DNA of 64,000 nt. It comes from Ensifer sp. BR816 (GTDB taxonomy: Bacteria; Pseudomonadota; Alphaproteobacteria; Rhizobiales; Rhizobiaceae). The stretch lies in assembly GCF_000378985.1 (NCBI RefSeq), contig NZ_KB905372.1:124001-188000 (forward strand). The letters are read 5' to 3'. The notes under the pieces are model-generated. The model was given only the letters and a program-made list of their open reading frames with translations. It made no database searches and was not told where the DNA came from. Positions 23,749 to 51,025 of the stretch are shown one piece after another (the stretch's first letter is position 1; each line of letters opens with the position of its first letter). A program made the translations under genes and the position numbers.

Positions 23749-24282
23749 TTAAAGCCCCGCCTCTCGATGCCAAATGTAGCCGAACGGAACGGAAAGTCGC
23801 AGTTCGCCACGGCGCGCCTTCGATCTGGCGGCATCGAGCATCCGTGCTCTCAGCACGCCCAGTTCGAACTCGCTGATACTGCCCTTCATTCCCAGCAGCA
23901 GCCGATCGTTGGGTCGACACGGATTGTAGACGCCGTCATGGTCAATGACGCGGGCTTCGACCAGGCCGCAGAGTTCGAGCAGGTGATGCCAGTCCCGACC
24001 GTTGCGCGCAAGCCGTGAAGCATCGAAGCATAAGACGGCACCAACTTGGCCAGCGCATAAAAGGGCGACAAGACGGTCGAAACCAGGGCGCGCGACAGTT
24101 CCGCTGGCAGAGCGCCCGAGGTCGTCGTCGATGGTCTCGATGTCGCTGAAGCCGTGTTGTCGCGCAACGTCAACAAGATGATATTGCCGTCGCTGGCTTT
24201 CCAGATTTGTCATGACCTGCGATTGCGAGGACTGCCGTACGTAGACGATGGCTTTGCGCGTGAGCAGCGCTGTCGGAATCAA
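23749..24282 (-). pseudogene. Serine recombinase of element E2, truncated
   Basis: The N-terminal 178 residues of a large serine recombinase: KAIVYVRQSSQSQVMTNLES (catalytic Ser region), DDDLGRSASG, DASRLARNGRDWHHLL and GMKGSISEFELGVLRARM. It is nearly identical to the start of the intact E1 recombinase (25330-27399) and stops at YIWHREAGL, where foreign DNA begins. The start is TTG 24282, overlapping the stop of the E2 small ORF once IS66-A is removed. IS66-A therefore inserted at the junction of the small ORF and the recombinase gene of E2; the other half of E2 is at 29717-30203. Confidence 0.85.
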
Positions 24283-24292
24283 ATTAGTTGTT

Positions 24293-24300
24293 GCTCATCG
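24293..24300. repeat. 8-bp target duplication of IS66-A (left)
   Basis: GCTCATCG here is repeated at 29717-29724, immediately outside the two IS66-A termini. An 8-bp duplication is standard for IS66. Confidence 0.9.
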
Positions 24301-24327
24301 GTAACCATCCGGCCAAGGCCGCGGGGC

Positions 24328-24627
24328 TTATGATTTCGGCTCATCTGCCATGATGCGTTCGATCTTTTCCGGATCACATTGCTCATCGAGAAGGAATTGG
24401 CGAATGCCGCCTTCCCAGGAGCGCACGTCGGCGAGGAACTCCTGCAGGCTCTCGATGCCGCGGTCGGTAAAGGTTGTGCTGCCCTCGTCGGTGCCGTCGT
24501 AGATATGGATCATCTCGCCGTAGTCGATGTTGTCGGAGTTGCTGGCGATTTCTTCAAGCAACTCGAGGTTCTCACCGATCACCGTGGCGACATATTCGAT
24601 CGTGTAGACATGCGTCGGGCGCGCCAT
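24328..24627 (-). CDS. 99-residue passenger protein of IS66-A
   Basis: An acidic 99-residue protein, MARPTHVYTIEYVATVIGEN, continuing LELLEEIASNSDNIDYGEMI, with a C-terminal E-K-I-E-R-I-M-A-D-E-P-K-S. Its ATG overlaps the TGA of tnpC (TGATG), so it is translationally coupled to the transposase. I do not recognise the family. It lies inside the IS66-A boundaries, so it is cargo or an accessory or regulatory protein of the IS rather than a host gene. Confidence 0.7.
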   Translation of the reverse strand: MARPTHVYTIEYVATVIGENLELLEEIASNSDNIDYGEMIHIYDGTDEGSTTFTDRGIESLQEFLADVRSWEGGIRQFLLDEQCDPEKIERIMADEPKS

Positions 24628-24848
24628 CAGGCCGCCACCTGCCGGGCGCTTCCGGCGGACCAGTTCCACGGCAATAGTTCCGGCAGCCTTGATACTGGAA
24701 GGCTGGGCATGCGGGCGAGCACGTCCGCCAGCCAGGCCTGCGGATCGATATCGTTCATCTTTGCCGAGACGATCAGGGAATACATGAAGGCAGCTCGTTC
24801 GCCTCCGCGCTGTGAACCGGCGAATAGCCATGCCTTTCTTCCCAGAGC
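24627..24848 (-). pseudogene. tnpC: IS66-A tnpC, 3' part (split by E1)
   Basis: The last 74 codons of TnpC: ALGRKAWLFAGSQRGGERAA, then FMYSLIVSAKMNDIDPQAWL and the end LPELLPWNWSAGSARQVAA. The matching 5' part is at 27430-28842. Joined at the Ala codon, they give a 545-codon frame with R-G-I-A-L-G-R-K restored. Confidence 0.9.
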
Positions 24849-24850
24849 CA

Positions 24851-25333
24851 TTGCCCGTTCATTCTGCCCATGTCGGTCAGGAATTGGAGGTTCATTACCG
24901 TTGGCATCCCTATTTTGGCCGCAAGGTCAGTGTGCGGCGGGTAGAGCATCGAGCGACGGGCCAATTTTTTAAGGTGCAAGGTCCATCGGGTCTCGTAGTT
25001 TCGATGGCTGCCTGGATGCTTGATCCGGTGGTTTGCGCCGGGATGACGCTGGGCGCGCCACAGGTCGATCTCTTGGCATTGTCCGATCTGAAGAGGCTGG
25101 TCACGGTAGCCGCTGCTCCCCCAAACTCCCAACGCGATAATGGAATCGCTTGGGAGAAAGTCGATGAAACAGCACGACGCGCCCGCGCTGACCTCGGGCA
25201 GACAGATGAGCCTGATATTCGAACCTCGCCGGCTGGACGGGATGAACGAAGCGGACCGGGCGAAGGTCGTTTTGACGCTTGCCCAAGTCCTGATGCAAGC
25301 CGCCGGCATCCGGGTCGAGGAGCTTGCCGATGA
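24851..25333 (+). CDS. DUF5372-like protein of element E1
   Basis: A frame starting at TTG 24851 (LPVHSAHVGQELEVHYRWHP, then YFGRKVSVRRVEHRATGQFF). The N-terminal 85 or so residues match the first ORF of E2 (VHSAHVGDEVEVLYRWHPYF) and, more distantly, that of E3 (THQFHPLFGRQL). Some databases name this family DUF5372; I recall that rather than confirm it. The C-terminal third overlaps the next ORF and may not be functional. A small beta-rich DNA- or recombinase-binding accessory is possible. Confidence 0.65.
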   Translation: MPVHSAHVGQELEVHYRWHPYFGRKVSVRRVEHRATGQFFKVQGPSGLVVSMAAWMLDPVVCAGMTLGAPQVDLLALSDLKRLVTVAAAPPNSQRDNGIAWEKVDETARRARADLGQTDEPDIRTSPAGRDERSGPGEGRFDACPSPDASRRHPGRGACR

Positions 25334-25343
25334 CAAGCGCTGA
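25164..25343 (+). CDS. Small conserved ORF of element E1
   Basis: A 59-residue protein, MKQHDAPALTSGRQMSLIFE, then PRRLDGMNEADRAKVVLTLA and QVLMQAAGIRVEELADDKR. The block L-I-F-x-x-R-x-L-D-G-(M/L)-x-x-x-D-R-x-K-x-x-x-x-L-A-x-x-L-M-Q-A-A-G is conserved in E2, so the gene is real. GGAGAAAG precedes ATG 25164. It overlaps the start of the recombinase gene. The predicted helical pattern suggests a recombination directionality or accessory factor; this is a guess. Confidence 0.7.
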   Translation: MKQHDAPALTSGRQMSLIFEPRRLDGMNEADRAKVVLTLAQVLMQAAGIRVEELADDKR

Positions 25344-27399
25344 TCTGCTCCCGGCGACCGTGCTCCAGCGTAAGGCAGTCGTCTATGTGCGCCAGTCGTC
25401 GCAGTCCCAGGTCATGACCAATCTGGAAAGCCAGCGACGCCAGTATGATCTGGTCGACATCGCGCGCAAGTACGGCTTTGCCGACATCGAGGTCATAGAC
25501 GACGATCTCGGGCGATCCGCGAGCGGAACGGTGGCGCGGCCCGGCTTCGACCGTCTGGTCGCTTGGCTCTGCGCGGGTAAGGTCGGGGCCGTCCTGTGCT
25601 TCGACGCGTCGAGGCTCGCGCGCAACGGGCGCGACTGGCATCATTTGCTTGAACTGTGCGGACTTGTCGAAGCCCGCGTCATCGATCATGACGGTGTGTA
25701 CAACGCCTGCCATCCGAATGATCGCCTGCTCCTGGGCATGAAAGGCAGCATCAGCGAGTTCGAGCTGGGTGTGTTGCGGGCAAGAATGTACGAAGCCGCC
25801 AGGTCGAAGGCGCATCGGGGTGAGCTGCGCCTGTCGGTTCCGTTCGGCTATATATGGCATCGCGAAGCAGGACTGGGGCTCGACCCCGACATCCGTCTGC
25901 AAGAGGTGATCCGGCTTATCTTCGCCCGCTTTCGCGAACTTGGTAGTGCCCGCCAGGTGCTGTTGTCGATGAAGGCCGCGCAAATCCACTTCCCCCGGCC
26001 TGCAGATGAAGGCCGCATGACCAACTGCATCTGGCAGCCGGTCCGCTACCGCAATGTGATCAGTGCGCTAAAAAATCCATTCTATGCGGGCGCTTATGTC
26101 TACGGCAAAAGCGAGAAGCGAACTTCAATCGTTGAGGGGCGAGCGCGGCGAACCTACGGACATTACAAGCCTGCGGGCACCTGGGAAGTGATGATCAAGG
26201 ATCATCACGAAGGGTACATCGGCTGGGAGGAATATGAACGCAACCAGAAGCAGCTGGCGCTCAATGCCTACGGTCGCTCGGATGGTGTAAAGTCAGGCCG
26301 TGGGGGCAAGGCGCTGTTATCGAGCCTCCTGACGTGCGCCCGTTGCGCCCAACGTCTGAGTGTTTGCTATAGGGGCGGCCCGATAGGCCAGCCGGTCTAC
26401 CGCTGCGACAAGGGCAATCTGGCTGGGCTGCCTCGTTGTATGATCTTCGGTGCTCCGAAGATTGACACGGCGGTTGCACGAGAGCTGTTGCGAGCGGTAG
26501 AACCCTTGGCGATCGAAGCCGCGATCGAGGCGGAACGGATGCACCGGAAACAGCAAGATGATCAGCGCCAGATCCTTGATCTGGAGCTCCAGCAGGCCCG
26601 CTACGAGACCGGCCTTGCCGAGCGGCGCTACGCGGCATGTGATCCCGACAATCGTCTGATCGCCGCACAGTTGGAGAAAAACTGGGAAATCGCGTTGCGC
26701 CGCGTGCGTGATCTTGAGACGCGCCAGCCTGCCGAAAACCCGACGACCATCGAGGTTGATCCAGGTGCTTTCGCCAACCTGGCGGAAAACCTGTCAGCGG
26801 CCTGGAATGCTCCTGATGTGACGATGCGCGCCCGCCAGCAGCTTCTTCGAACGCTGATCGCCGACATCATCGTCGATGTCGACGATGCCATACGTGATGT
26901 CGTGCTCACAATTCATTGGCGGGGTGGCCAGCACTCGGAGCTGCGTGTTCGCAAGCCGCGCTCCGGCGAACACGGCAGCGCGACAGCCGAAGATGCACTG
27001 GAAGTCATGCGCAGCATGGCCGGCCGCTGGTCTGACGAGCACATCGCCGCCACACTCAACCGAATGGGCTTTCCCACCGGCCAGGGAAAGACCTGGACAG
27101 CCCATCGGGTCCGTTCTGTTCGTTACGTGCGTGGCATCGATGCCTACCGTTCAGCGGACAAAAATGGCGAATGGCTCACGCAGACCGAGGCCGCGACAGC
27201 GTTGGGTGTCTCAAGCCATATGATACGCAAGCTTGTTTCCACGGGCGTTCTTCCTGCAGTCCAGGTTGTTCCGCGGGCGCCCTATCAGATCCGAGCCATC
27301 GATTTGACGTCCGAGCCGGTCAGAGCGGCGATTGCCCGGAAAGGTCGCCCGTTGCGCGATGTTGATGCGGACACGCTTCCAATGTTTACAGACACTTAA
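25330..27399 (+). CDS. Large serine recombinase of element E1
   Basis: A 689-residue serine recombinase. The catalytic domain is at about residues 13-160 (YVRQSSQSQ with the nucleophile Ser, DASRLARNGRDW, GSISEFELGVLRARM). The recombinase DNA-binding domain follows (FRELGSARQVL, NPFYAGAYVYG), then a zinc ribbon (CARCAQRL...YRCDKG...RC), a coiled coil rich in Arg/Glu, and a C-terminal helix-turn-helix (TEAATALGVSSHMIRKLV). ATG 25330 is preferred over the in-frame TTG at 25324. It should catalyse insertion and excision of the element. The frame is intact, so E1 may be active. Confidence 0.92.
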   Translation: MTSADLLPATVLQRKAVVYVRQSSQSQVMTNLESQRRQYDLVDIARKYGFADIEVIDDDLGRSASGTVARPGFDRLVAWLCAGKVGAVLCFDASRLARNGRDWHHLLELCGLVEARVIDHDGVYNACHPNDRLLLGMKGSISEFELGVLRARMYEAARSKAHRGELRLSVPFGYIWHREAGLGLDPDIRLQEVIRLIFARFRELGSARQVLLSMKAAQIHFPRPADEGRMTNCIWQPVRYRNVISALKNPFYAGAYVYGKSEKRTSIVEGRARRTYGHYKPAGTWEVMIKDHHEGYIGWEEYERNQKQLALNAYGRSDGVKSGRGGKALLSSLLTCARCAQRLSVCYRGGPIGQPVYRCDKGNLAGLPRCMIFGAPKIDTAVARELLRAVEPLAIEAAIEAERMHRKQQDDQRQILDLELQQARYETGLAERRYAACDPDNRLIAAQLEKNWEIALRRVRDLETRQPAENPTTIEVDPGAFANLAENLSAAWNAPDVTMRARQQLLRTLIADIIVDVDDAIRDVVLTIHWRGGQHSELRVRKPRSGEHGSATAEDALEVMRSMAGRWSDEHIAATLNRMGFPTGQGKTWTAHRVRSVRYVRGIDAYRSADKNGEWLTQTEAATALGVSSHMIRKLVSTGVLPAVQVVPRAPYQIRAIDLTSEPVRAAIARKGRPLRDVDADTLPMFTDT

Positions 27400-27427
27400 C
27401 GAAGGGGTGCATAATGAAACACGTCTC

Positions 27428-28842
27428 GCAATGCCGCGCAGGGCGCGTTCGGCGGCATTGTTCGAAAGGCAAAGCCTGCCGTCGTCGAGGAAGCGGGTGA
27501 ACGCGTCCCAGCGACCCTCCTTCTCGAACATGTAGTTGATCGCCTTGGCGACGGGATTGTGCTTGGACATCTGGGAACGCTGGGCCATGAGCCATTGATG
27601 CAATTCCTCGACGCGCGGGCGAGCATGCTGCTGCCGCGCCGCGAGACGTTCTTCGACGGACATGCCGTTTATGCCGCGCTCGATCTCGAAGAGCGCGTCA
27701 ATGCGGGCGACGGCCTCAAGTGCGACGGGCGATATCTCGTGGGCAGGCTTGCCCTTGCGCACGTTGCCGGCGATGTCGGCCAGTTCGAAGAACTTGCGCC
27801 TGGCATGGCTCCAGCAGAGTGCGCTCTTGACCGGCGCAGGGCCGCGGTCCGCACGGTAGAGGTCGTTGTAGCCACCATAGGCATCGGTCTGGAGAGTGCC
27901 ATGCCACCCCACGAGATGCCTGTTTGGATGGGTCTTCTCGCGATCGGGTGAGAAGTGGAAGAGTGCCGCGGGAGGCGCGCCGCCCGCGAAGGGGCGGTCG
28001 TCGCGGACGTAAGTCCATAATCTTGCCTGCCGCGTTGCACCCCGTGCCAGAAGCGGCACGGTGGTATCGTCGCCATGCAGGCGAACGGCTGCCAGAACAT
28101 GGGCGCGGATCAGATCATGGATCGGCTGCAGCGCCGTCGCGCAAGCCCCGACCTGATCGGCCAAAGTGGAGAGGCTGAGATCGACGCCTTCCCTGGCGTA
28201 GCGCTCGGCCTGGCGGTTCAAGGGCTGATGCTGGCCAAACTTCTCGAACAGGATCGTCGCCAGAAGGTTCGGCCCCGCCCATCCGCGCGGCGTGGCATGG
28301 AAAGGTGCCGGTGACTGGCTGATCTTCTCGCAATCCCGGCAGGTGAACTTCTCGCGAACCGTCTGGATCACCTTCCACTGGCGCGGGATCGCCTCCAGCG
28401 TCTCGGTGACGTCTTCGCCCATCTTCACGATCCGGTCCGAGCCGCAGCAGGTGCAGGTCGACGGAGCTTCGATGATCAAGCGCTCGCGCGGCAGGTGCGC
28501 GGGAAACGGCTTGCGGGCCGGCCGGCGGCGTTCGAAGGCGGAGACATTCGTGATCTTCGCTGCCACGCGTTCCGCCGCGATCTCGTCCTCGGTGGCGTCG
28601 GCCTCAAGTTCTTCGAGTTGCAGTTCCATCTGGTCGATCAGCCGGGCGCGGCGTTCGGAGCTCTGGCCATACTGCTCGCGGCGCATTTTGGCGATCTCAA
28701 GCTTGAGGTGTCGGATCATCGCCTCGGACGTCGTCACGATGGCGCGCACCTGCGCGAGATCGGCCTCGGCGGAGGCAGCACGTGCTTCCGATGCCGCTAG
28801 CGCGGCACGCAGTCTGGATATCTCCGAAGCAGCATCATCCAT
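27428..28842 (-). pseudogene. tnpC: IS66-A tnpC, 5' part (split by E1)
   Basis: The first 471 codons of an IS66 transposase: an N-terminal coiled coil (MDDAASEISRLRAALAASEA), the zinc-binding CTCCGSD region, the central catalytic domain (HGDDTTVPLLA, DAYGGYND, WSHARRKFFE) and NNAAERALRGIA, where E1 begins. The open frame continues through E1 antisense DNA for about 70 more codons, which is artificial. The 3' part is at 24627-24848. Confidence 0.9.
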
Positions 28843-28901
28843 GGCCGAAAGCTACCATGCACCATGCTAAAAGCCCAACAAAAACAGAGGAATGCAGTCG
28901 A

Positions 28902-29252
28902 TTAGCCTGCCTTGGAAGGCCGCTGCGTCCAGCGTGGATTGCGCCAGTCGATCCCTTCCAGGAGATAGCCGAGTTGCGCCGCCGACACTGGCACGGTGGA
29001 GCCATTTTGACTGACCGGCCAGATGAACTTTCCGGCTTCAAGCCGCTTCAGGTAAAGCGACATGCCGATCCCGTCGTGCCACAGAACCTTGATCAGGTCA
29101 CCCTTGCGACCGCGGAAGCAGAAGACTTCGCCGCCATGAGGATCGCGGCCAAGACCCTGTTGCACCTTCAGCGCCAGGCTGTTCATGCCGCAGCGCATGT
29201 CCGTCACACCGCCCGCAATCCACACCTTCACACCAGCCGGAAAGGCGATCAT
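28902..29252 (-). CDS. tnpB: IS66 family TnpB (IS66-A)
   Basis: A 116-residue intact IS66 accessory protein: FPAGVKVWIAGGVTDMRCGM, CFRGRKGDLIKVLWHDG, GKFIWPVSQ, and LLEGIDWRNPRWTQRP at the end. It overlaps tnpA by 4 nt. Confidence 0.9.
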   Translation of the reverse strand: MIAFPAGVKVWIAGGVTDMRCGMNSLALKVQQGLGRDPHGGEVFCFRGRKGDLIKVLWHDGIGMSLYLKRLEAGKFIWPVSQNGSTVPVSAAQLGYLLEGIDWRNPRWTQRPSKAG

Positions 29253-29656
29253 GACGCATCCAGAACCGGCAACAGCCGGGCGAGAATGATCGGATCAAGC
29301 GACGCCGGGATTATCAACCGTCGACCGTTCGGCAGGCCGATCTCGATCCTTTTGTCATCTTCCGGCCGGGGCGGCGAGACCTTCTCGCAAGATGCCGCCG
29401 CCGGTGACGAAATCGAAAGCGGCACGAAGCCCGTTGAAGCCGAACCGCTCAGAAGGCCACTACGGAACTCCCGACGCCAACGGGTCAACAATGACCGCGA
29501 CAAACCATATCGCCGCGCCGTCGCGGACCCCTGCCGAAAGCCTTGCAGGCTCTCCTCGACGATCCGAACCTTCTCTTCGTCCGACCAATCCCGCCGGCGA
29601 CCAAGATCATCGGAGGAAAGGACCTCAATGGGGGAAATGATTGTAGCGCATGACAT
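29249..29656 (-). CDS. tnpA: IS66 family TnpA (IS66-A)
   Basis: A 135-residue IS66 TnpA with the helix-turn-helix WSDEEKVRIVEESLQGFRQG continuing SATARRYGLSRSLLTRWRR, and the C-terminal IEIGLPNGRRLIIP. I start it at ATG 29656, 60 nt inside the right terminus; an upstream TTG at 29677 is also in frame. Confidence 0.85.
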   Translation of the reverse strand: MSCATIISPIEVLSSDDLGRRRDWSDEEKVRIVEESLQGFRQGSATARRYGLSRSLLTRWRREFRSGLLSGSASTGFVPLSISSPAAASCEKVSPPRPEDDKRIEIGLPNGRRLIIPASLDPIILARLLPVLDAS

Positions 29657-29716
29657 AAGCCATGGACTTAAAGCCAATCAGCAAATCAGGGCAGACGGCC
29701 TTCGGCGGAGGGTTAC

Positions 29717-29918
29717 GCTCATCGTTGAACTCCTCGACGACGAGGCCTGCGGCCTGCATCAGCAGGCAAGCCAGCGTTGAAATCGCCTTCTTGCGATCCT
29801 TGTCGCTCAGTCCGTCGAGCATCCGGGTTTTGAATATCAGGTCGAGCTGCCGGCCCGACGCCGGCACCAGCGTATTGCGGGATCTCATCATGGTCCTCCT
29901 GAGTGATTCTACGTCCAC
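29717..29918 (-). CDS. Small conserved ORF of element E2, cut by IS66-A
   Basis: It reads SRNTLVPASGRQLDLIFKTR, MLDGLSDKDRKKAISTLACL, LMQAAGLVVEEFNDER, matching the E1 small ORF. With IS66-A removed it ends VEEFNDEQQLI and its TGA overlaps the TTG of the E2 recombinase. As written, the frame runs on into IS66-A to 29625. Confidence 0.65.
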
Positions 29919-30203
29919 TTCGGAAGGGTGCCGCTTTGCTGCCGCCAGAGACCAGCCTGTTCAATTCGATTAGCGTCGCAAGATCGACGCGTGGCGTTCC
30001 CATGGTCATACCGCGGCAAACCAAGGGATCGATCATCCACCCTGAGATCGCGATCACGACACCTGTCGGCCCCAGAACCTTCAAAAACCGGCCTGTCGCT
30101 CGTTCTTCAACACGGCGAATGGAAACCCTCTGGCCAAAATAAGGATGCCAGCGATAAAGAACCTCAACTTCATCGCCGACATGGGCAGAATGAACGGGGC
30201 ATT
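29717..30203 (-). mobile_element. Serine-recombinase element E2, left part
   Basis: The 5' portion of an E1-like element, inserted antisense in tnpC of IS66-D. Its left junction GGGGCATT-GC-AACTGG shares the dinucleotide GC at the same Ala codon used by E1. The end sequence GTTCATTCTGCCCATGTCGG is identical to that of E1. IS66-A cuts it at 29717-29724; the recombinase part continues at 24300-23749, where E2 is itself truncated. Confidence 0.85.
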
Positions 30204-30207
30204 GCAA
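29719..30207 (-). CDS. DUF5372-like protein of element E2
   Basis: A frame from TTG 30207: QCPVHSAHVGDEVEVLYRWH, PYFGQRVSIRRVEERATGRF, GWMIDPLVCRGMTMGTPRVD. It is the counterpart of the E1 ORF at 24851 (about 60 per cent similar over 90 residues by eye). The start codon lies in flanking IS66-D sequence. The C-terminal part overlaps the small ORF and its 3' end is altered by the IS66-A junction. Confidence 0.6.
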   Translation of the reverse strand: MQCPVHSAHVGDEVEVLYRWHPYFGQRVSIRRVEERATGRFLKVLGPTGVVIAISGWMIDPLVCRGMTMGTPRVDLATLIELNRLVSGGSKAAPFRSGRRITQEDHDEIPQYAGAGVGPAARPDIQNPDARRTERQGSQEGDFNAGLPADAGRRPRRRGVQR

Positions 30208-30416
30208 CTGGAAGAAAGAGTTGGCTGTTCAGTGACACCGTCGATGGAGCAAGAGCCAGCGCCGTTGTCTACAGCATCATGCTGACCTGCCGGGCTTGCG
30301 GCATAGAACCCTTGGCCTACTTGCGCTACGTCCTCACCGAATTGCCTCAGCGCGACGGCGACGCAGACATCTCTGACCTCCTGCCATTCAACTTTCCAAA
30401 GGCCCTAGCGGCCTGA
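30204..30416 (+). pseudogene. tnpC: IS66-D tnpC, C-terminal part
   Basis: ATGRKSWLFSDTVDGARASA continues VVYSIMLTCRACGIEPLAYL and ends LPFNFPKALAA: the last 70 codons of a TnpC closely related to that of IS66-C. The upstream part was displaced by E2 and later rearrangements. The tail of IS66-D is split by IS66-C; its terminal repeat lies at 40625-40645. Confidence 0.85.
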
Positions 30417-45777: not shown

Positions 45778-47430
45778 TCATTGTGAGGCTTTGATGCGGG
45801 CGGCGTATGCCCATGGCATCAGGGCATCGATGTCCTTGGCGAGGTGGCCGTTTGCGAGACGGGTGAAGAGGTCGCACAGGTAGGCGTAGGGCTCGACGCC
45901 GTTCATTTTGCACGTGCCGATCAGGCTGGCAAAGCGGGCCCAATTTCGCCCCCCTTCATCGTGCCCGGCAAAGAGCGCATTGCGGCGGTTCATGGCGGGG
46001 CGGCGGATGGCGTTTTCCACCAGGTTGGAGTCAATATCGACGTGGCCGTCGCCCAGGAACAGCCGGAAGCCCTCCTGTCGCGTCAGCATATAGGCCAGGG
46101 CTTTTCCGAGATCAGACTTGCGTGAGACACGCGAAGCCTGTGCTGCGATCCAGGTAAAGAACTCGTCCACCAGCGGAAGGGAAAGGTCCTGTCGGACCGC
46201 CCGGCGATGTTCGGGATCTGAACTGCGGATACTGTCTTCGATCTTGTAGAGGGCGGCGATCCGCACCAGCGCCTCGTCGACGATAGGTGATCCGCTCTTT
46301 GGCGTGGCCTTGATCAGCTTTCTGCGCCCGTGCGCCCAACAGAAAGCCAGCTTCAATGGGTCGCCACCCACCCGGTCTGGCGTGGCGAGGTGAGAGTAAC
46401 CGCCATAGGCATCAACCTGGATTGTGCCGTTGAACCCATTGAGGATCTCGGCGGCATATTCGCCTTTACGCCCGGGCCGATAATGGAACACCACGCCCGG
46501 CGGCGCTAAGCCGTTCCAGCCGCGGTCGTCGCGTAGCACGGCCCATAGATAACCCGTCTTCGTCTTGCCTCGCCCCGGATCCAGAACCGGAGCGGTGGTC
46601 TCGTCGACATAGAGCCTTGTGCTCTCCCAAAGCAGCCGTTTGGCCATATGGTCGACCACCGGTGCGATTTCGCAACCCGTGCGCCCCATCCAGTCGGAAA
46701 GGACAGTGCGGTCGATCGGCACTCCATGTCGCGCCATGACCTCGGCCTGCCGGTTGAGCGGCATATGTTCGGAATGCTTGGAGACGGCAATCTCCGCCAG
46801 AAGGGCTTCCGTCGGCCAGCTTGCCTCCAAAAGATGCGCCGGCGCTTTGGCCTGGACGACGCCGGTTCGACCCTTTGGGCATGCGTATTTCGGGCGGATC
46901 GTGACGATCACCTCGTAGCGCGCCGGGACCCGGTCGAGCCGTTCCGTCCGATCCTCGCCGATCCGGACCATGTTGCCGCAACCGCAGGGACAAACGATGC
47001 TCTCGGGCTCGATCACTCTCTCGACCCGCGGCAGGTGTTCGGGCAGTGCACGGGCCTTACGCTCCTTGCGAGGAGCGACTTTTTCCGGATCGGATGTGCT
47101 GGCTTCGATCTTCTTCTCGACGGCGGCGATCCGTGCCTGTGTTTCGGCGATCGCCGTTTCAAGGTCTTCCAGCGCCAGTTCCATCTGCGCCGGATCGAGC
47201 TTTTCCGATTTCGGCCCGAACTTCGTGCGCCGATAGTCGTGAACCTGCCCCTCAAGCTTCTCGATCAGTTCCTTCAGCTCGGCGATGAAGGCGTCCTTTT
47301 CGACAACCACAGCCTGCTCATGCTGACGTGCGGCACGCTCGACCGACAGCTCGACCTGCATCGCCGCAAAGGCTTTGACAACCTCTGGCGGAAGGTCCGG
47401 AAACTGGCTGAGATCAAGCGGCGGCGACAT
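45778..47430 (-). CDS. tnpC: IS66 transposase TnpC (IS66-F)
   Basis: A 550-residue intact transposase. It has an N-terminal coiled coil (ELKELIEKLEGQVHDYRRTK), zinc-binding CPCGCGNMVRIGEDRTER, the catalytic core (YVDETTAPVLDPG, DAYGGYSHL, CWAHGRRKLI) and the end DALMPWAYAARIKASQ. Its sequence at the E1/E2 target region is PAMNRRNALFAGHDEGG, not G-R-K-S-W-L-F, and this tnpC is uninterrupted. Confidence 0.92.
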   Translation of the reverse strand: MSPPLDLSQFPDLPPEVVKAFAAMQVELSVERAARQHEQAVVVEKDAFIAELKELIEKLEGQVHDYRRTKFGPKSEKLDPAQMELALEDLETAIAETQARIAAVEKKIEASTSDPEKVAPRKERKARALPEHLPRVERVIEPESIVCPCGCGNMVRIGEDRTERLDRVPARYEVIVTIRPKYACPKGRTGVVQAKAPAHLLEASWPTEALLAEIAVSKHSEHMPLNRQAEVMARHGVPIDRTVLSDWMGRTGCEIAPVVDHMAKRLLWESTRLYVDETTAPVLDPGRGKTKTGYLWAVLRDDRGWNGLAPPGVVFHYRPGRKGEYAAEILNGFNGTIQVDAYGGYSHLATPDRVGGDPLKLAFCWAHGRRKLIKATPKSGSPIVDEALVRIAALYKIEDSIRSSDPEHRRAVRQDLSLPLVDEFFTWIAAQASRVSRKSDLGKALAYMLTRQEGFRLFLGDGHVDIDSNLVENAIRRPAMNRRNALFAGHDEGGRNWARFASLIGTCKMNGVEPYAYLCDLFTRLANGHLAKDIDALMPWAYAARIKASQ

Positions 47431-47642: not shown

Positions 47643-47689
47643 GTACCTTATCTGAGAATGCAGCCCCTTCCGGCGCAGATCAGCAGCTA

Positions 47690-48019
47690 GTGCTGGTTAC
47701 CCATCAGTTTCATCCTCTTTTCGGCCGGCAGCTGCCCTGCGTTGGGAAGCGAGGTAACTTGCAGGGCGACCGTCTGCTTTTGCAGACCGAGGATGGCGCC
47801 ATATGGCCGCTTCCCCCTCAATGGACTGATCTTGTGAGCATTGATCCAGAAGTTGTCGCGAGCAACGGGCGCGCGCTCTTGCTGGTTTCGAACTTGATGG
47901 AACTAGCCAGCATGGTGGAACACCTCTGTGGCAGGTTGGCAGCGCGGTCGGGAGCGGAGTGTAAGGATAATTATGCCGCTAGTGTAAACCAGATTATGCC
48001 GCAAGAGGCCCCGCAATGA
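47690..48019 (+). CDS. DUF5372-like protein of element E3
   Basis: A 109-residue protein from GTG 47690: VLVTHQFHPLFGRQLPCVGK, LLQTEDGAIWPLPPQWTDLV. The pattern (V)-x-H-x-x-H-P-(Y/L)-F-G-(R/Q)-x-(L/V) is shared with the first ORFs of E1 and E2. The start codon is my choice; the frame is open from 47375 through IS66-F antisense DNA. Confidence 0.6.
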   Translation: MLVTHQFHPLFGRQLPCVGKRGNLQGDRLLLQTEDGAIWPLPPQWTDLVSIDPEVVASNGRALLLVSNLMELASMVEHLCGRLAARSGAECKDNYAASVNQIMPQEAPQ

Positions 48020-48142
48020 GCGGTAAATCCTGTAATATCTGCCAATTTCTGGTGATACAATGTGGAATCGCTCTTGATTTAAACGAGAATGGCGGTATAA
48101 ATAGATTTACATTAACACTCGATCTTGCACCCGGAACCTACA

Positions 48143-48604
48143 ATGCCTGCGAAGTACGGCGGCAAGCGATCAAAGATGGATACCCTCCTCGACGAGGGCA
48201 CCTTCAATCCAAATCCCGAGAAGGTGCGCGACCCGAAGTTCCAGGGAAGCGAGTTCTTCGATCCGCACGACGCCGTCCAGGTCAAATACGAGATGCTGCG
48301 GCGCGTCTCCATCGACAATGTCTCGGTAACGGACGCTTCCGACGAGTATGGTGTTTCCAGGCCAACCTACTACCAGGCCAAGGCAAACTTCGACACGAGT
48401 GGGATTGCCGGACTGGTACCGGCAAAGCCGGGACCCCGCGGTCCCCACAAGGTCGACGACGAAGTCCTGGCATTTCTCCAGGCGCGGCTGGTACCGGGCG
48501 AGCCCGTTCGTGCGCGCGAACTCGCCAAGCTGGTCCGCAACGAACTCGATGTCGCACTTCATCCCAGGACGATCGAGCGGCTGTTAAAAGAAACGATCCG
48601 CTAG
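48143..48604 (+). CDS. Helix-turn-helix protein of element E3
   Basis: A 153-residue basic protein: MPAKYGGKRSKMDTLLDEGT, then a transposase-like helix-turn-helix (DNVSVTDASDEYGVSRPTYY), GLVPAKPGPRGPHKVDDEVL and LHPRTIERLLKE. The architecture resembles the N-terminal DNA-binding region of winged transposases. GGAAC precedes ATG 48143. E1 and E2 lack an equivalent gene. A role in DNA binding or regulation of the element is likely (inference). Confidence 0.7.
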   Translation: MPAKYGGKRSKMDTLLDEGTFNPNPEKVRDPKFQGSEFFDPHDAVQVKYEMLRRVSIDNVSVTDASDEYGVSRPTYYQAKANFDTSGIAGLVPAKPGPRGPHKVDDEVLAFLQARLVPGEPVRARELAKLVRNELDVALHPRTIERLLKETIR

Positions 48605-48630
48605 AAGTTGCCACGGCATCGGCATGTTCA

Positions 48631-48894
48631 TTGCCGGCCACCGCGGACCAGTACGAGGTGCTGCGCAGCGCAGCTCTCGGCGAAGTTCTGCCGCTCAAGG
48701 CCCGTAGCGGCCTCATGCTTTTTCTGCGCCGCGGCATGTGGGGATGGGCCCGCGCACTGCCTGCAGCGGCATGCCCTGATCAAGGCCAGTTTTACCTGTC
48801 ATCGGCCACCCGACCGGCGCACGGCGAACTCAGCGCCGTCGTTCATGTCCTGGCGACCATCGCCATGAGCATCCACCAACGGAGAGCACCATGA
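48631..48894 (+). CDS. Small ORF of element E3
   Basis: An 87-residue frame from TTG 48631: PATADQYEVLRSAALGEVLP, LKARSGLMLFLRRGMWGWAR, ending MSIHQRRAP. Its TGA overlaps the ATG of the recombinase (ATGA), as in E1 and E2, where a small ORF also precedes the recombinase. I do not recognise the family, and it is not obviously related to the E1/E2 small ORF. Confidence 0.55.
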   Translation: MPATADQYEVLRSAALGEVLPLKARSGLMLFLRRGMWGWARALPAAACPDQGQFYLSSATRPAHGELSAVVHVLATIAMSIHQRRAP

Positions 48895-50991
48895 ATGTAC
48901 ACCTCAAAGTCCAGTCTCATCACCGTGAACGCAGCGCCTACCTCTACATCCGCCAATCTTCGATGCGGCAAGTCATCGACAATACCGAGAGCGCCATGCG
49001 CCAATATGCGCTTCGCGGCCGTGCTATCGCCCTTGGTTGGCGCGAGGAGCAGATTATCGTCATCGATAATGATCAAGGCGAATCCGGCGCATCGGCGGTC
49101 TGGCGCGAGGGATTTCAGCGGCTGGTCAGCGATGTCGGCATGGGGCATGCCGGGATCGTCATGGGCCTGGAGGTCTCTCGTCTGGCGCGCAACAATGCCG
49201 ATTGGCAGCGGCTGCTCGAGATCTGTGCTCTCGCCGATACCCTGATCCTCGACGAGGACGGCGTCTATGACCCGGGTAGTTTCAACGACCGGCTCCTGCT
49301 CGGCCTCAAGGGAACAATGAGTGAGGCCGAACTGCATGTGATCAAGGCACGGCTGCGCGGCGGCATCCTCAATAAGGCCCGGCGTGGCGAGTTCCGTTGC
49401 CCCTCCCGACCGGGCTGGTCTATGACCATTCCGGCAACGTGACGCTTGATCCGGACATGCAAGTCAGAGAGACGATCGCCCATTTCTTCGAGACATTCTC
49501 TCGCGTCGGATCCGCCTCCCAGACCGTCAAGGCCTTTCGTCAAGAGGGCATTCTCTTTCCCTCCCGTCTGCACGGCAGCCAGACGGTTTTCCGGCCGCTG
49601 ACGCCTTCGACGGCGATGCGCGTCCTGCACAATCCACGTTACGCCGGAGCCTATGCCTATGGCCGCCGCCGCTATCGACGCACCATTGATGGCAAGAGGA
49701 TTGTGCGTGAACAAGATAATGATGATTGGACGGCATGCATTCCAGATGCCCATCCCGGCTACATCAGTTGGGAGCAGCATCAGGAGAACTTGAAGATTCT
49801 GAAGTCGAACATCTGCCACAAATGGAACGCGGCGGTCGCATCACCTCCGCGCGAAGGCCCGGCACTGCTGCAGGGGCGGGCCGTGTGTGGGCAATGCGGC
49901 AGGCATTTTCGCATGCGCTACGCCGCCCGACGCGGCCGGCAGGAAGCCTGGTACGTTTGTGATCGCGCCCGTAGCGATCGCGGTGAACCCCTATGCCAGG
50001 CGATTGCTGCACCTCCCGTCGACGAAGCCATCGGTATCCTGATCGCCGAGCAGATGACGCCGGCAGCCATCGAACTGGCGATTGAAGTCCGCAAAGAGAT
50101 CGAAGCGCGACATGAAGAGGCGGATCGGCTGCGCTGTCGCGCAATCGAGCGCGCCCAAACGGAAGCCGATCTCGCCCAGCGCCGTTTCATGCTCGTCGAT
50201 CCCAATAACCGCCTCGTCGCCGACACGCTCGAAGGCGAATGGAACGAGAAGCTCCGCATCTTAGCCAATGCCCGCGAAGAGCGCGAGCGCGGCCAGGAGC
50301 ACGATCAATTCATCCTTGATAAGGCCGTCCGCGAGCGGTTGGTCGCAATGACGGCGGACTTCAAAAAACTCTGGACCAACCCAGAAACCCCGAACCGCGA
50401 ACGAAAGCGTCTGCTTGCCCACATCATTGAGGACGTCACCCTCCTCAAACTACCGAAGAGAGGCACAACCAAGGCTCATATTCGCACTTCAAGGGCGGTA
50501 AAACCCAGACGCTCGTCACCATCAGCCCAAAATCGCCAAGCCAGCAGGTCAAGACGAACCCCGACGTCATCCAACTGATCGATAAACTCCTCGACGATCA
50601 TATTTTTTCCGAGATCGCCGACATTCTCAATAATCAGGGACACCGTCCGGGCTCGGTGACGCGCCGTGACCAGCGCGACGCCCGCTTCACAACCAAACGC
50701 GTCACCTATCTTGTTCGCGAATACAAGCTGAGATCACGCTATGACCGGCTCCGGGATCGTGGGATGTTGACAAAGAAGGAGGCGGCTGCACACCTCAATA
50801 TCCATGAGCATACCCTCGCCAGATGGGCCGAACATGGCCTCGTCACCAGCCATGCCTACAACGGACACTACTACCTGTACGAGCTTCCGAAGACAGATTT
50901 ACCGCAAAAGCAATCCAGTCGATGGAACCAGCTCGTCGATCGCGTGGCCGCCCATAAGGAAAATGCCAGACACGCCAAAACCTTCAACTGA
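48891..50991 (+). pseudogene. Serine recombinase of element E3, two frameshifts
   Basis: The N-terminal catalytic domain is open from ATG 48891 (RSAYLYIRQSSMRQVIDNTE, VSRLARNNADWQRLLEIC, GTMSEAELHVIKARL). At about 49400 a missing C in a C-run (CGTTGCCCCTCCC) shifts the frame; the next frame carries the recombinase domain (NPRYAGAYAYGRRR), the zinc ribbon (CGQCGRHFRMRY) and the coiled coil. A second shift near 50485 leads to the C-terminal part (IFSEIADILNNQGHRPGSVT, MLTKKEAAAHLNIHEHTLAR). Rejoined it is about 700 residues. Inactive as written, unless these are sequencing errors. Confidence 0.85.
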
Positions 50992-51025
50992 ACCCGAAAG
51001 AGAGATGCAGTATGAATGCAGATCG

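Follow-up and report, generated by a model that had tools for sequence, protein, structure and literature searches.

The stretch of DNA described here, called the window, comprises 64,000 nucleotides of Ensifer sp. BR816 (contig NZ_KB905372.1, positions 124,001 to 188,000) and belongs to a contig of 217 kb. In it an element of 2581 bp, termed E1, sits antisense inside the tnpC gene of an IS66 insertion sequence, as determined from translations of open reading frames (ORFs), Pfam matches and comparison with empty sites. E1 holds a DUF5372-like ORF, a small ORF and the gene of a large serine recombinase, and a second copy, E2, lies in a different IS66 tnpC (coordinates are collected in Table 1). 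The recombinase exceeds the cut-offs of PF00239 and PF07508 and reaches 23.8 bits for PF13408 (cut-off 25.3). The DUF5372-like ORF of E1 matched 0 Pfam families, so PF17342 itself was not matched. A profile of this ORF from close relatives of E1 (the E1 clade) was compared with seven ORFs of more distant sister elements, four of which exceed the PF17342 cut-off and three fall below, and hhalign returned a probability of 98.1 (E 7.8e-14); by this profile comparison the E1 ORF is tied, at sequence level, to PF17342. The predicted structure of its product is a small barrel with a helix (mean predicted local distance difference test, pLDDT, 79.7; predicted template modelling score, pTM, 0.59), and no structural match in the PDB or among viral proteins was found for it at E 0.001.

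The borders of E1 can be drawn with the help of two natural uninterrupted copies of its host gene. The first, locus L096 on a Shinella plasmid, shows 97% DNA identity over 1433 nt and has a tnpC coding sequence of 1635 nt, that is 545 codons including the stop; the second, L067, is 94% identical. The empty site reads GGCATT-GC-TCTGGG in L096 (GGCATTGCTCTGGG), with a GGTATT variant in L067, and the flanks of E1 read GGCATT-GC/ and /GC-TCTGGG, the slash standing for the element (GGCATTGC and GCTCTGGG). Comparison of the L096 site with the two sides of E1 therefore leaves one GC on each side and gives the element its size. The insertion codon is the alanine in ..GIA/LGRK of TnpC, with a 2-bp GC overlap at the junctions. 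An earlier note on this DNA had described the coordinates, ends, gene order and target of E1 and E2 in the same way, which ORFs, Pfam and tblastn bear out, and had claimed a GC at the E1 junction and a whole tnpC once E1 is removed, with which both natural empty copies agree. Some tblastn matches run from TnpC residue 476 to about 499 into the element; these are taken as probably due to chance.

A scan with one genome per species yielded 58 loci, and together with further loci 102 recombinase places were examined. The E1 clade is defined as the 60 places whose recombinase is at least 55% identical to that of E1 in the best stretch, and the site in TnpC was judged by a profile of 17 intact TnpC proteins. 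By this profile at least one end of the element lies at the one TnpC codon in 51 of the 60 places. The nine others are L027, L035, L043, L050, L060, L062, L087, L007 and E2, the last because its parts lie too far apart for the script. Left ends are recognisable in 51 of the 60 places; 40 of these lie antisense and four sense at the single profile position, and among the remaining seven L028 is in IS66 by tblastn, L043 is in IS66 as judged by eye and L027 is in a transposase of the IS110 family. Right ends lie at the same place antisense in 33/60 and sense in 4/60, and in the other 23 the recombinase is truncated, the contig ends or different sequence follows (the right ends of L101/L102 read four codons off since the recombinase match ends early). 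The sense orientation at this codon was noticed in L103, in L101/L102 (one sequence from two genomes), in L031 (left side) and in L036 (right side). In the TnpC consensus DNNAAERALRGIALGRKSWLF the insertion falls at the alanine, seven residues C-terminal to a glutamate which we take to be the catalytic one, as in DDE transposases. Of 297 genomes sampled from the organism's own order, four carry a recombinase of the E1 clade.

This wider sample backs the proposal of the earlier note that the recombinase has an attachment site inside IS66 transposase genes, and the check which it suggested, the mapping of homologues onto TnpC, places most of them at the same alanine codon and antisense. The antisense rule holds for most places and fails for the sense copies named above; IS66 tnpC as the target holds for the E1 clade, with L027 in IS110 as a departure inside it and with sister clades in other mobile-element genes. 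Of the second insertion claimed, E2, the left end does lie at the same codon of another IS66, and the right junction is absent. As a separate observation, the right side of the element in L030 (7064-7338) continues into another serine recombinase gene and not into tnpC.

The crossover core was examined by reading the flanking dinucleotides at the same set offset from the element ends as in E1, which gave 43 distinct rows. The left and right dinucleotides are equal in 31 of these, as against a mean of 18.7 and a maximum of 27 in 20,000 left/right re-pairings, and the agreement extends to 9 of the 13 rows whose left core is not GC (CC, AC, CA). Because GC is its own reverse complement, integration in either orientation should be possible, and the sense-oriented L103 and L101/L102 both carry a GC core; L031 (rearranged) and L036 (left end absent) give no information on this idea.

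Evidence for movement comes from near-identical copies in different surroundings. The elements on three plasmids of Microvirga ossetica share 98.7-99.8% identity over a length of 2.6-2.7 kb, with matches ending at the element ends or about 130 bp past the right end, and two of the copies (L150 and L151) lie in different tnpC types according to translations. The third, L149 (3940-6640), has the N-terminal parts of two different IS66 tnpC on its two sides; its flanks look as after a rearrangement, and recombination between element copies may rearrange replicons. The recombinases of E1 and L008 are 98% identical and their host TnpC fragments 57%, and across 22 loci there are 89 pairs whose recombinases share 80% identity or more, in 72 of which the TnpC fragments are less than 50% identical. 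Since near-identical copies sit in different IS66 types, the element is read from these sequences as moving on its own between IS66 copies. One plasmid of R. phaseoli carries two IS66::element copies of 5134 bp that are identical to each other and have different 8-bp duplications; this could be the result of composite transposition or of two insertions into identical IS66 copies. A third copy of this type on another plasmid has an element with 0 differences and an IS66 that differs at 7 positions, and this speaks for separate insertion or gene conversion. The earlier note had supposed that the element could hitchhike; the idea that these copies prove hitchhiking with IS66 was dropped, as the 0 versus 7 differences speak against it for one pair.

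The relatives of E1 are spread over many plasmids: 536 plasmid records have a match to the E1 recombinase and, at a stricter limit, 471 have a match to a sister recombinase, cyanobacteria and Streptomyces included. Forty-two of the places examined fall outside the E1 clade; after removal of four unrelated recombinases (23-29%) and two short fragments, 36 sister places are left. Sixteen sister regions were hand-picked among the plasmid matches, and others were gathered separately. In 28 of the 36 at least one flank lies in a mobile-element gene, for many of them with one flank only assigned, and the insertion points fall at conserved motifs as read from translations. The targets are IstB, at the Walker A motif (L134, L135) or at FGD (L132, L138), IstA before KVE (L136, L099), IS3 (L140, L106, L142), ISNCY before GRVE (L002, L145), TnpB of IS66 (L139, E3), transposases of the IS4/IS5/IS701 type, mostly at RW.IE (L051, L052, L057, L061, L064, L127, L128, L129, L130), IS630 at NPIE (L141), IS982-like sequences (L054-L056) and the reverse transcriptase of group II introns (L133, L131). 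Family names were taken from Pfam matches of fragments or of split-alignment partners or from record annotation, and those of L002, L051, L052 and L064, as well as the IS982 and IS630 labels, from reading of the translations. In a quick tree of 64 recombinases the grouping follows the target, the TnpC group requiring 2 changes versus 19.2 in shuffles; exceptions are L140 (IS3) amid the ISNCY pair and two IS701 rows standing apart, and several long branches are unsure. Two of these groups hold further genes: in Nostoc (L131, 4669-5655) an extra ORF of 329 amino acids, perhaps cargo, separates the recombinase from the N-terminal reverse transcriptase piece, and in the ISNCY-targeting elements a further protein, with a helix-turn-helix, stands between DUF5372 and recombinase (L002, 725-1195; L145, 14450-14899).

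The ends of E1 share a further feature. At the right end a purine-rich, Shine-Dalgarno-like stretch and an ATG stand a few bases before the core and read outwards, and it is at the left end that the DUF5372-like ORF begins, with no conserved start codon. When right end, core and left end are joined at the spacing of E1, the frame is open over 28 codons in all 38 distinct E1-clade loci with both ends present (L058, L059 and L063, which have no true right end, and the frameshifted L037 were excluded beforehand), and the Shine-Dalgarno-like motif precedes the ATG in 38/38. The joined protein of E1 would start MKHVSPLPVHSAHVGQELEV. In the integrated state 17 of the 38 loci have no in-frame start upstream of the ORF. 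A second test relies solely on the frames in which the target gene is read to either side of the element and is independent of the E1 spacing; by it the ATG is in frame with the DUF5372-like ORF in 30 of 32 E1-clade places, the two that fail (L040 and L042) having flanks that look frameshifted. The same was found for all 12 testable sister loci, in seven target genes, these being the loci with target frames known on both sides, and L098, L105, L109 and L131 make up the rest of the 16 sister places with a DUF5372-type match.

As regards the rest of the window, the left end of E2, at 30203, lies in the C-terminal part of its tnpC, and the whole IS66 that carries E1 is itself inserted in E2, its inverted repeats reading GTAACC.TCCG.C.AAGGCC. 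The E2 recombinase stops at 23749 and the right end of E2 is absent, so only its left junction serves as evidence. A more distant relative, E3, has a recombinase broken into two ORFs (48891-49442 and 49397-50578), and the tnpB in which it lies probably belongs to the same IS66 as the tnpC at 45778-47430. In the target-frame test the joining of the E3 ends fits in frame; a letter-by-letter reading of this joining was dropped. Elsewhere in the same genome a third copy of the E1 clade (L004, 992-3148, and L007) has kept its left end, with the recombinase cut near residue 106 and fused to tnpC, and it looks like a deletion derivative by its sequence. L004 and L007 look like the same sequence at both ends of the contig, which may for this reason be circular.

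Table 1. Coordinates of E1, E2, E3 and associated genes in the window
Feature	Position	Strand	Basis or remark
Element E1	24849..27429	+	crossover dinucleotide GC at 24847-24848 (left) and 27428-27429 (right); compared with empty sites L096 and L067
DUF5372-like ORF	24857..25330	+	own conserved start codon absent; predicted joining to ATG at 27414 in circle
Small ORF, 59 aa	25164..25343	+	180-nt ORF annotated directly 5' of recombinase in several plasmid records
Large serine recombinase, 691 aa	25324..27399	+	Resolvase, Recombinase; zinc ribbon and C-terminal HTH_17 slightly below cut-offs
Shine-Dalgarno-like GAAGGGG and outward ATG (27414-27416), then right inner arm	27401..27427	+	sequence reading
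N-terminal part of IS66 tnpC cut by E1	27430..28842	-	PF03050, PF13007, PF13005 (Pfam)
C-terminal part of tnpC cut by E1	24627..24846	-	translation and TnpC comparison
Whole IS66 (tnpA, tnpB, tnpC) carrying E1, inside E2	24301..29716	-	8-bp target duplication GCTCATCG at 24293-24300 and 29717-29724
Left part of E2 with DUF5372-like ORF	29717..30203	-	ORFs, tblastn
E2 recombinase, N-terminal part only	23749..24300	-	ORFs, Pfam
C-terminal part of IS66 tnpC cut by E2	30206..30416	+	ORFs, tblastn
E3, more distant relative (PF17342 ORF and broken serine recombinase) in IS66 tnpB	47650..51012	+	ends approximate

It is proposed that E1 is a minimal autonomous integrative element with a large serine recombinase, which would join the attP site of an excised circle to an attB site within the DNA of IS66 tnpC. 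The attB would be the conserved DNA encoding the region of the catalytic glutamate (..NNAAERALRGIA/LGRKxWLF), cleaved at a 2-bp core that is usually the GC of the alanine codon and, being a palindrome, would allow both orientations. The element itself would move between IS66 copies, and related clades would have shifted to conserved motifs in the genes of other mobile elements. The attP would lie within the 5' end of the DUF5372-like gene, with the ribosome-binding site and ATG on the right and the body on the left, so that integration would disconnect the gene and excision reconnect it. We infer that its protein works in the circular phase, for example as an integration cofactor, and is shut off on integration, an effect that would help to keep the element in place; most likely it is present in the circle and absent or low once the element is integrated, hence an integration aid or a circle-phase factor. 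The insertion site, the core, the movement and the reading frame across the ends are read from sequence comparison, and to them the catalytic roles, the circle, the expression switch and the function of the DUF5372-like protein are added as proposals. As a whole this explanation, an autonomous recombinase element with attB in a transposase gene and attP in its own accessory gene, is given a probability of roughly 0.83. Rather probable, and less firmly held, is the broader view that a large superfamily of minimal serine-recombinase elements crosses phyla and parasitises mobile elements, that each clade has taken as its attB the codons best conserved in one protein of transposition (the catalytic glutamate in DDE transposases, the Walker A motif in IstB, the reverse transcriptase in group II introns), and that the DUF5372 clades use attP as a gene-assembly switch confined to the circle.

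Several observations weigh against this explanation. The loci share descent, and the counts are thus not counts of independent events. Left ends without IS66 sequence (L143, L047, L035, L037) and the one in IS110 (L027) depart from the single site, and the core dinucleotides disagree in 12 of 43 rows, where L058, L059 and L063 were kept as mismatches in spite of having no true right end and nine stand. There is a weak correlation between the identity of the recombinases and that of TnpC (Mantel r 0.33, P 0.0026). As for the split gene, 21 of the 38 integrated loci have an in-frame ATG, GTG or TTG upstream of the DUF5372-like ORF, nine of them within eight codons, and the switch may therefore leak. 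A match of the DUF5372 type is present in only 16 of the 35 sister places searched, and the evidence for the split gene covers elements with such a match, the IS5/701, IS630 and IS982 groups falling outside it. The model of the DUF5372-like protein resembles SH3/Tudor-like barrels weakly (best PDB E 0.03). Finally, the joined attP of the E1 type, searched as one exact pattern, is absent from 385 genomes of the class, from viral contigs and from 180 collected loci, hence no circle or tandem copy was seen in that sequence.

Of the other explanations, the one with the most weight supposes that sites bound by the recombinase gave rise incidentally to the start codon and the frame at the ends, and that the circle assembles no gene. 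The right end of the E1 clade has in many loci the palindrome GTGCAC, which may be a binding site, and the loci share descent. Nevertheless, sister clades retain the purine-rich stretch, the ATG and the frame though the letters between them differ (GGAGGCATC, GAGGTGGGCATC, GAGGTGCATT), and 12 of 12 sister loci are in frame where chance would give 4, some of the 12 being close relatives, which makes this explanation unlikely. It may also be asked whether a general recombinase is seen here, whose targets lie in mobile genes because insertion sequences are dense on such plasmids, the more so as many sister loci were hand-picked from plasmid matches, one (L100) lies inside a peptidase M15 gene and seven of the 36 sister places have no assigned target (L098, L105, L107, L137, L109, L083, L108). 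The single-codon precision in IS66, the cuts at conserved motifs in other families and the agreement of recombinase clade with target in the 64-row tree make such an origin very improbable.

Marginally less credit is given to the thought that the elements are old, immobile relics recombined through homologous exchange: truncated copies do exist (E2, E3, L004, L059, L063) and the flanks of L149 are chimeric, yet an open recombinase frame of at least 560 amino acids is retained in 64 places, and copies 99.8% identical lie in different genes of one strain. Least probable of all is that some IS66 elements have the unit as an accessory module, which is inherited with them and is not a separate mobile element. 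This view draws on the weak identity correlation (r 0.33) and on the pair of identical IS66::element copies that share one plasmid and differ in their 8-bp duplications, but 17 intact TnpC genes are without the element, relatives occur in IS110, IS21, IS3 and group II introns, and the Microvirga copies already contradict it; a unit belonging to IS66 itself was dropped because near-identical elements are found in different IS66 types.

The autonomous recombinase element proposed here has several partial counterparts. The survey of large serine recombinases by Durrant et al. 2022 (PMC10083194) describes about half of the carriers as prophages, and its section on named targets gives magnesium chelatase, prolyl isomerase and competence genes, with no transposase targets in that section. 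The site-specific elements and phages treated there (PMC10083194) are like E1 in having a large serine recombinase, attL/attR, a 2-bp core and, as far as that section goes, a conserved coding site for each cluster. Against curated models the E1 recombinase scores 80 of 375 bits for XisF of the fdxN element and 52 of 700 bits for Ccr of SCCmec, neither cut-off being reached. Phage genomes gave 29 matching records, 0/29 covering 80% of the E1 recombinase and all below 60% identity, and viral contigs scanned with two sister recombinases gave no match. A sister element is found in the pNGR234a plasmid (NC_000914), where a unit annotated as DUF5372/helix-turn-helix/transposase/recombinase (L145, 13954-17259) lies antisense in an ISNCY-type transposase just before GRVE; it has the same in-frame joining of ends as E1 and a different target, and the recombinase of L002, a close relative of this unit, shares 37% identity with that of E1. 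In this unit the DUF5372 coding sequence is annotated with an internal start. Its genes are presumably those named y4bA-D, and a literature search for the unit found no paper.

For the split gene the nearest idea, by analogy, would be the self-splitting integrase of archaea. The part of PMC8371274 concerned with the archaeal 'suicidal' integrases of the SSV type describes them as exclusively archaeal, with an element gene that is split at attP by integration and whole only in the circle. The gene split there is their own tyrosine recombinase gene, whereas in E1, a bacterial element with a serine recombinase, it is an accessory ORF; E1 accordingly falls outside the SSV type, which is recognised by a tyrosine recombinase gene holding attP. 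IS66, with its tnpA, tnpB, tnpC, inverted repeats and 8-bp duplication, is the carrier only. The group II intron RmInt1 homes into ISRm2011-2 and is, like E1, a rhizobial mobile element housed in an insertion sequence, but its homing is RNA-based and involves no recombinase. Among titles and abstract openings, by which the literature was judged, no account of serine-recombinase elements in transposase genes was found.

Transposase genes are among the commonest bacterial genes. As a home for an integrative element, such a gene would offer a widespread and non-essential target, and the insertion would disable a competitor. The clade-by-clade change of target may be regarded as a natural series for how serine recombinases change their specificity, and the clades would be a source of recombinases whose attB sites are conserved and predictable. 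The split accessory gene would represent a simple genetic switch, whose nearest precedent, as far as the sources consulted go, is archaeal and concerns the recombinase gene itself.

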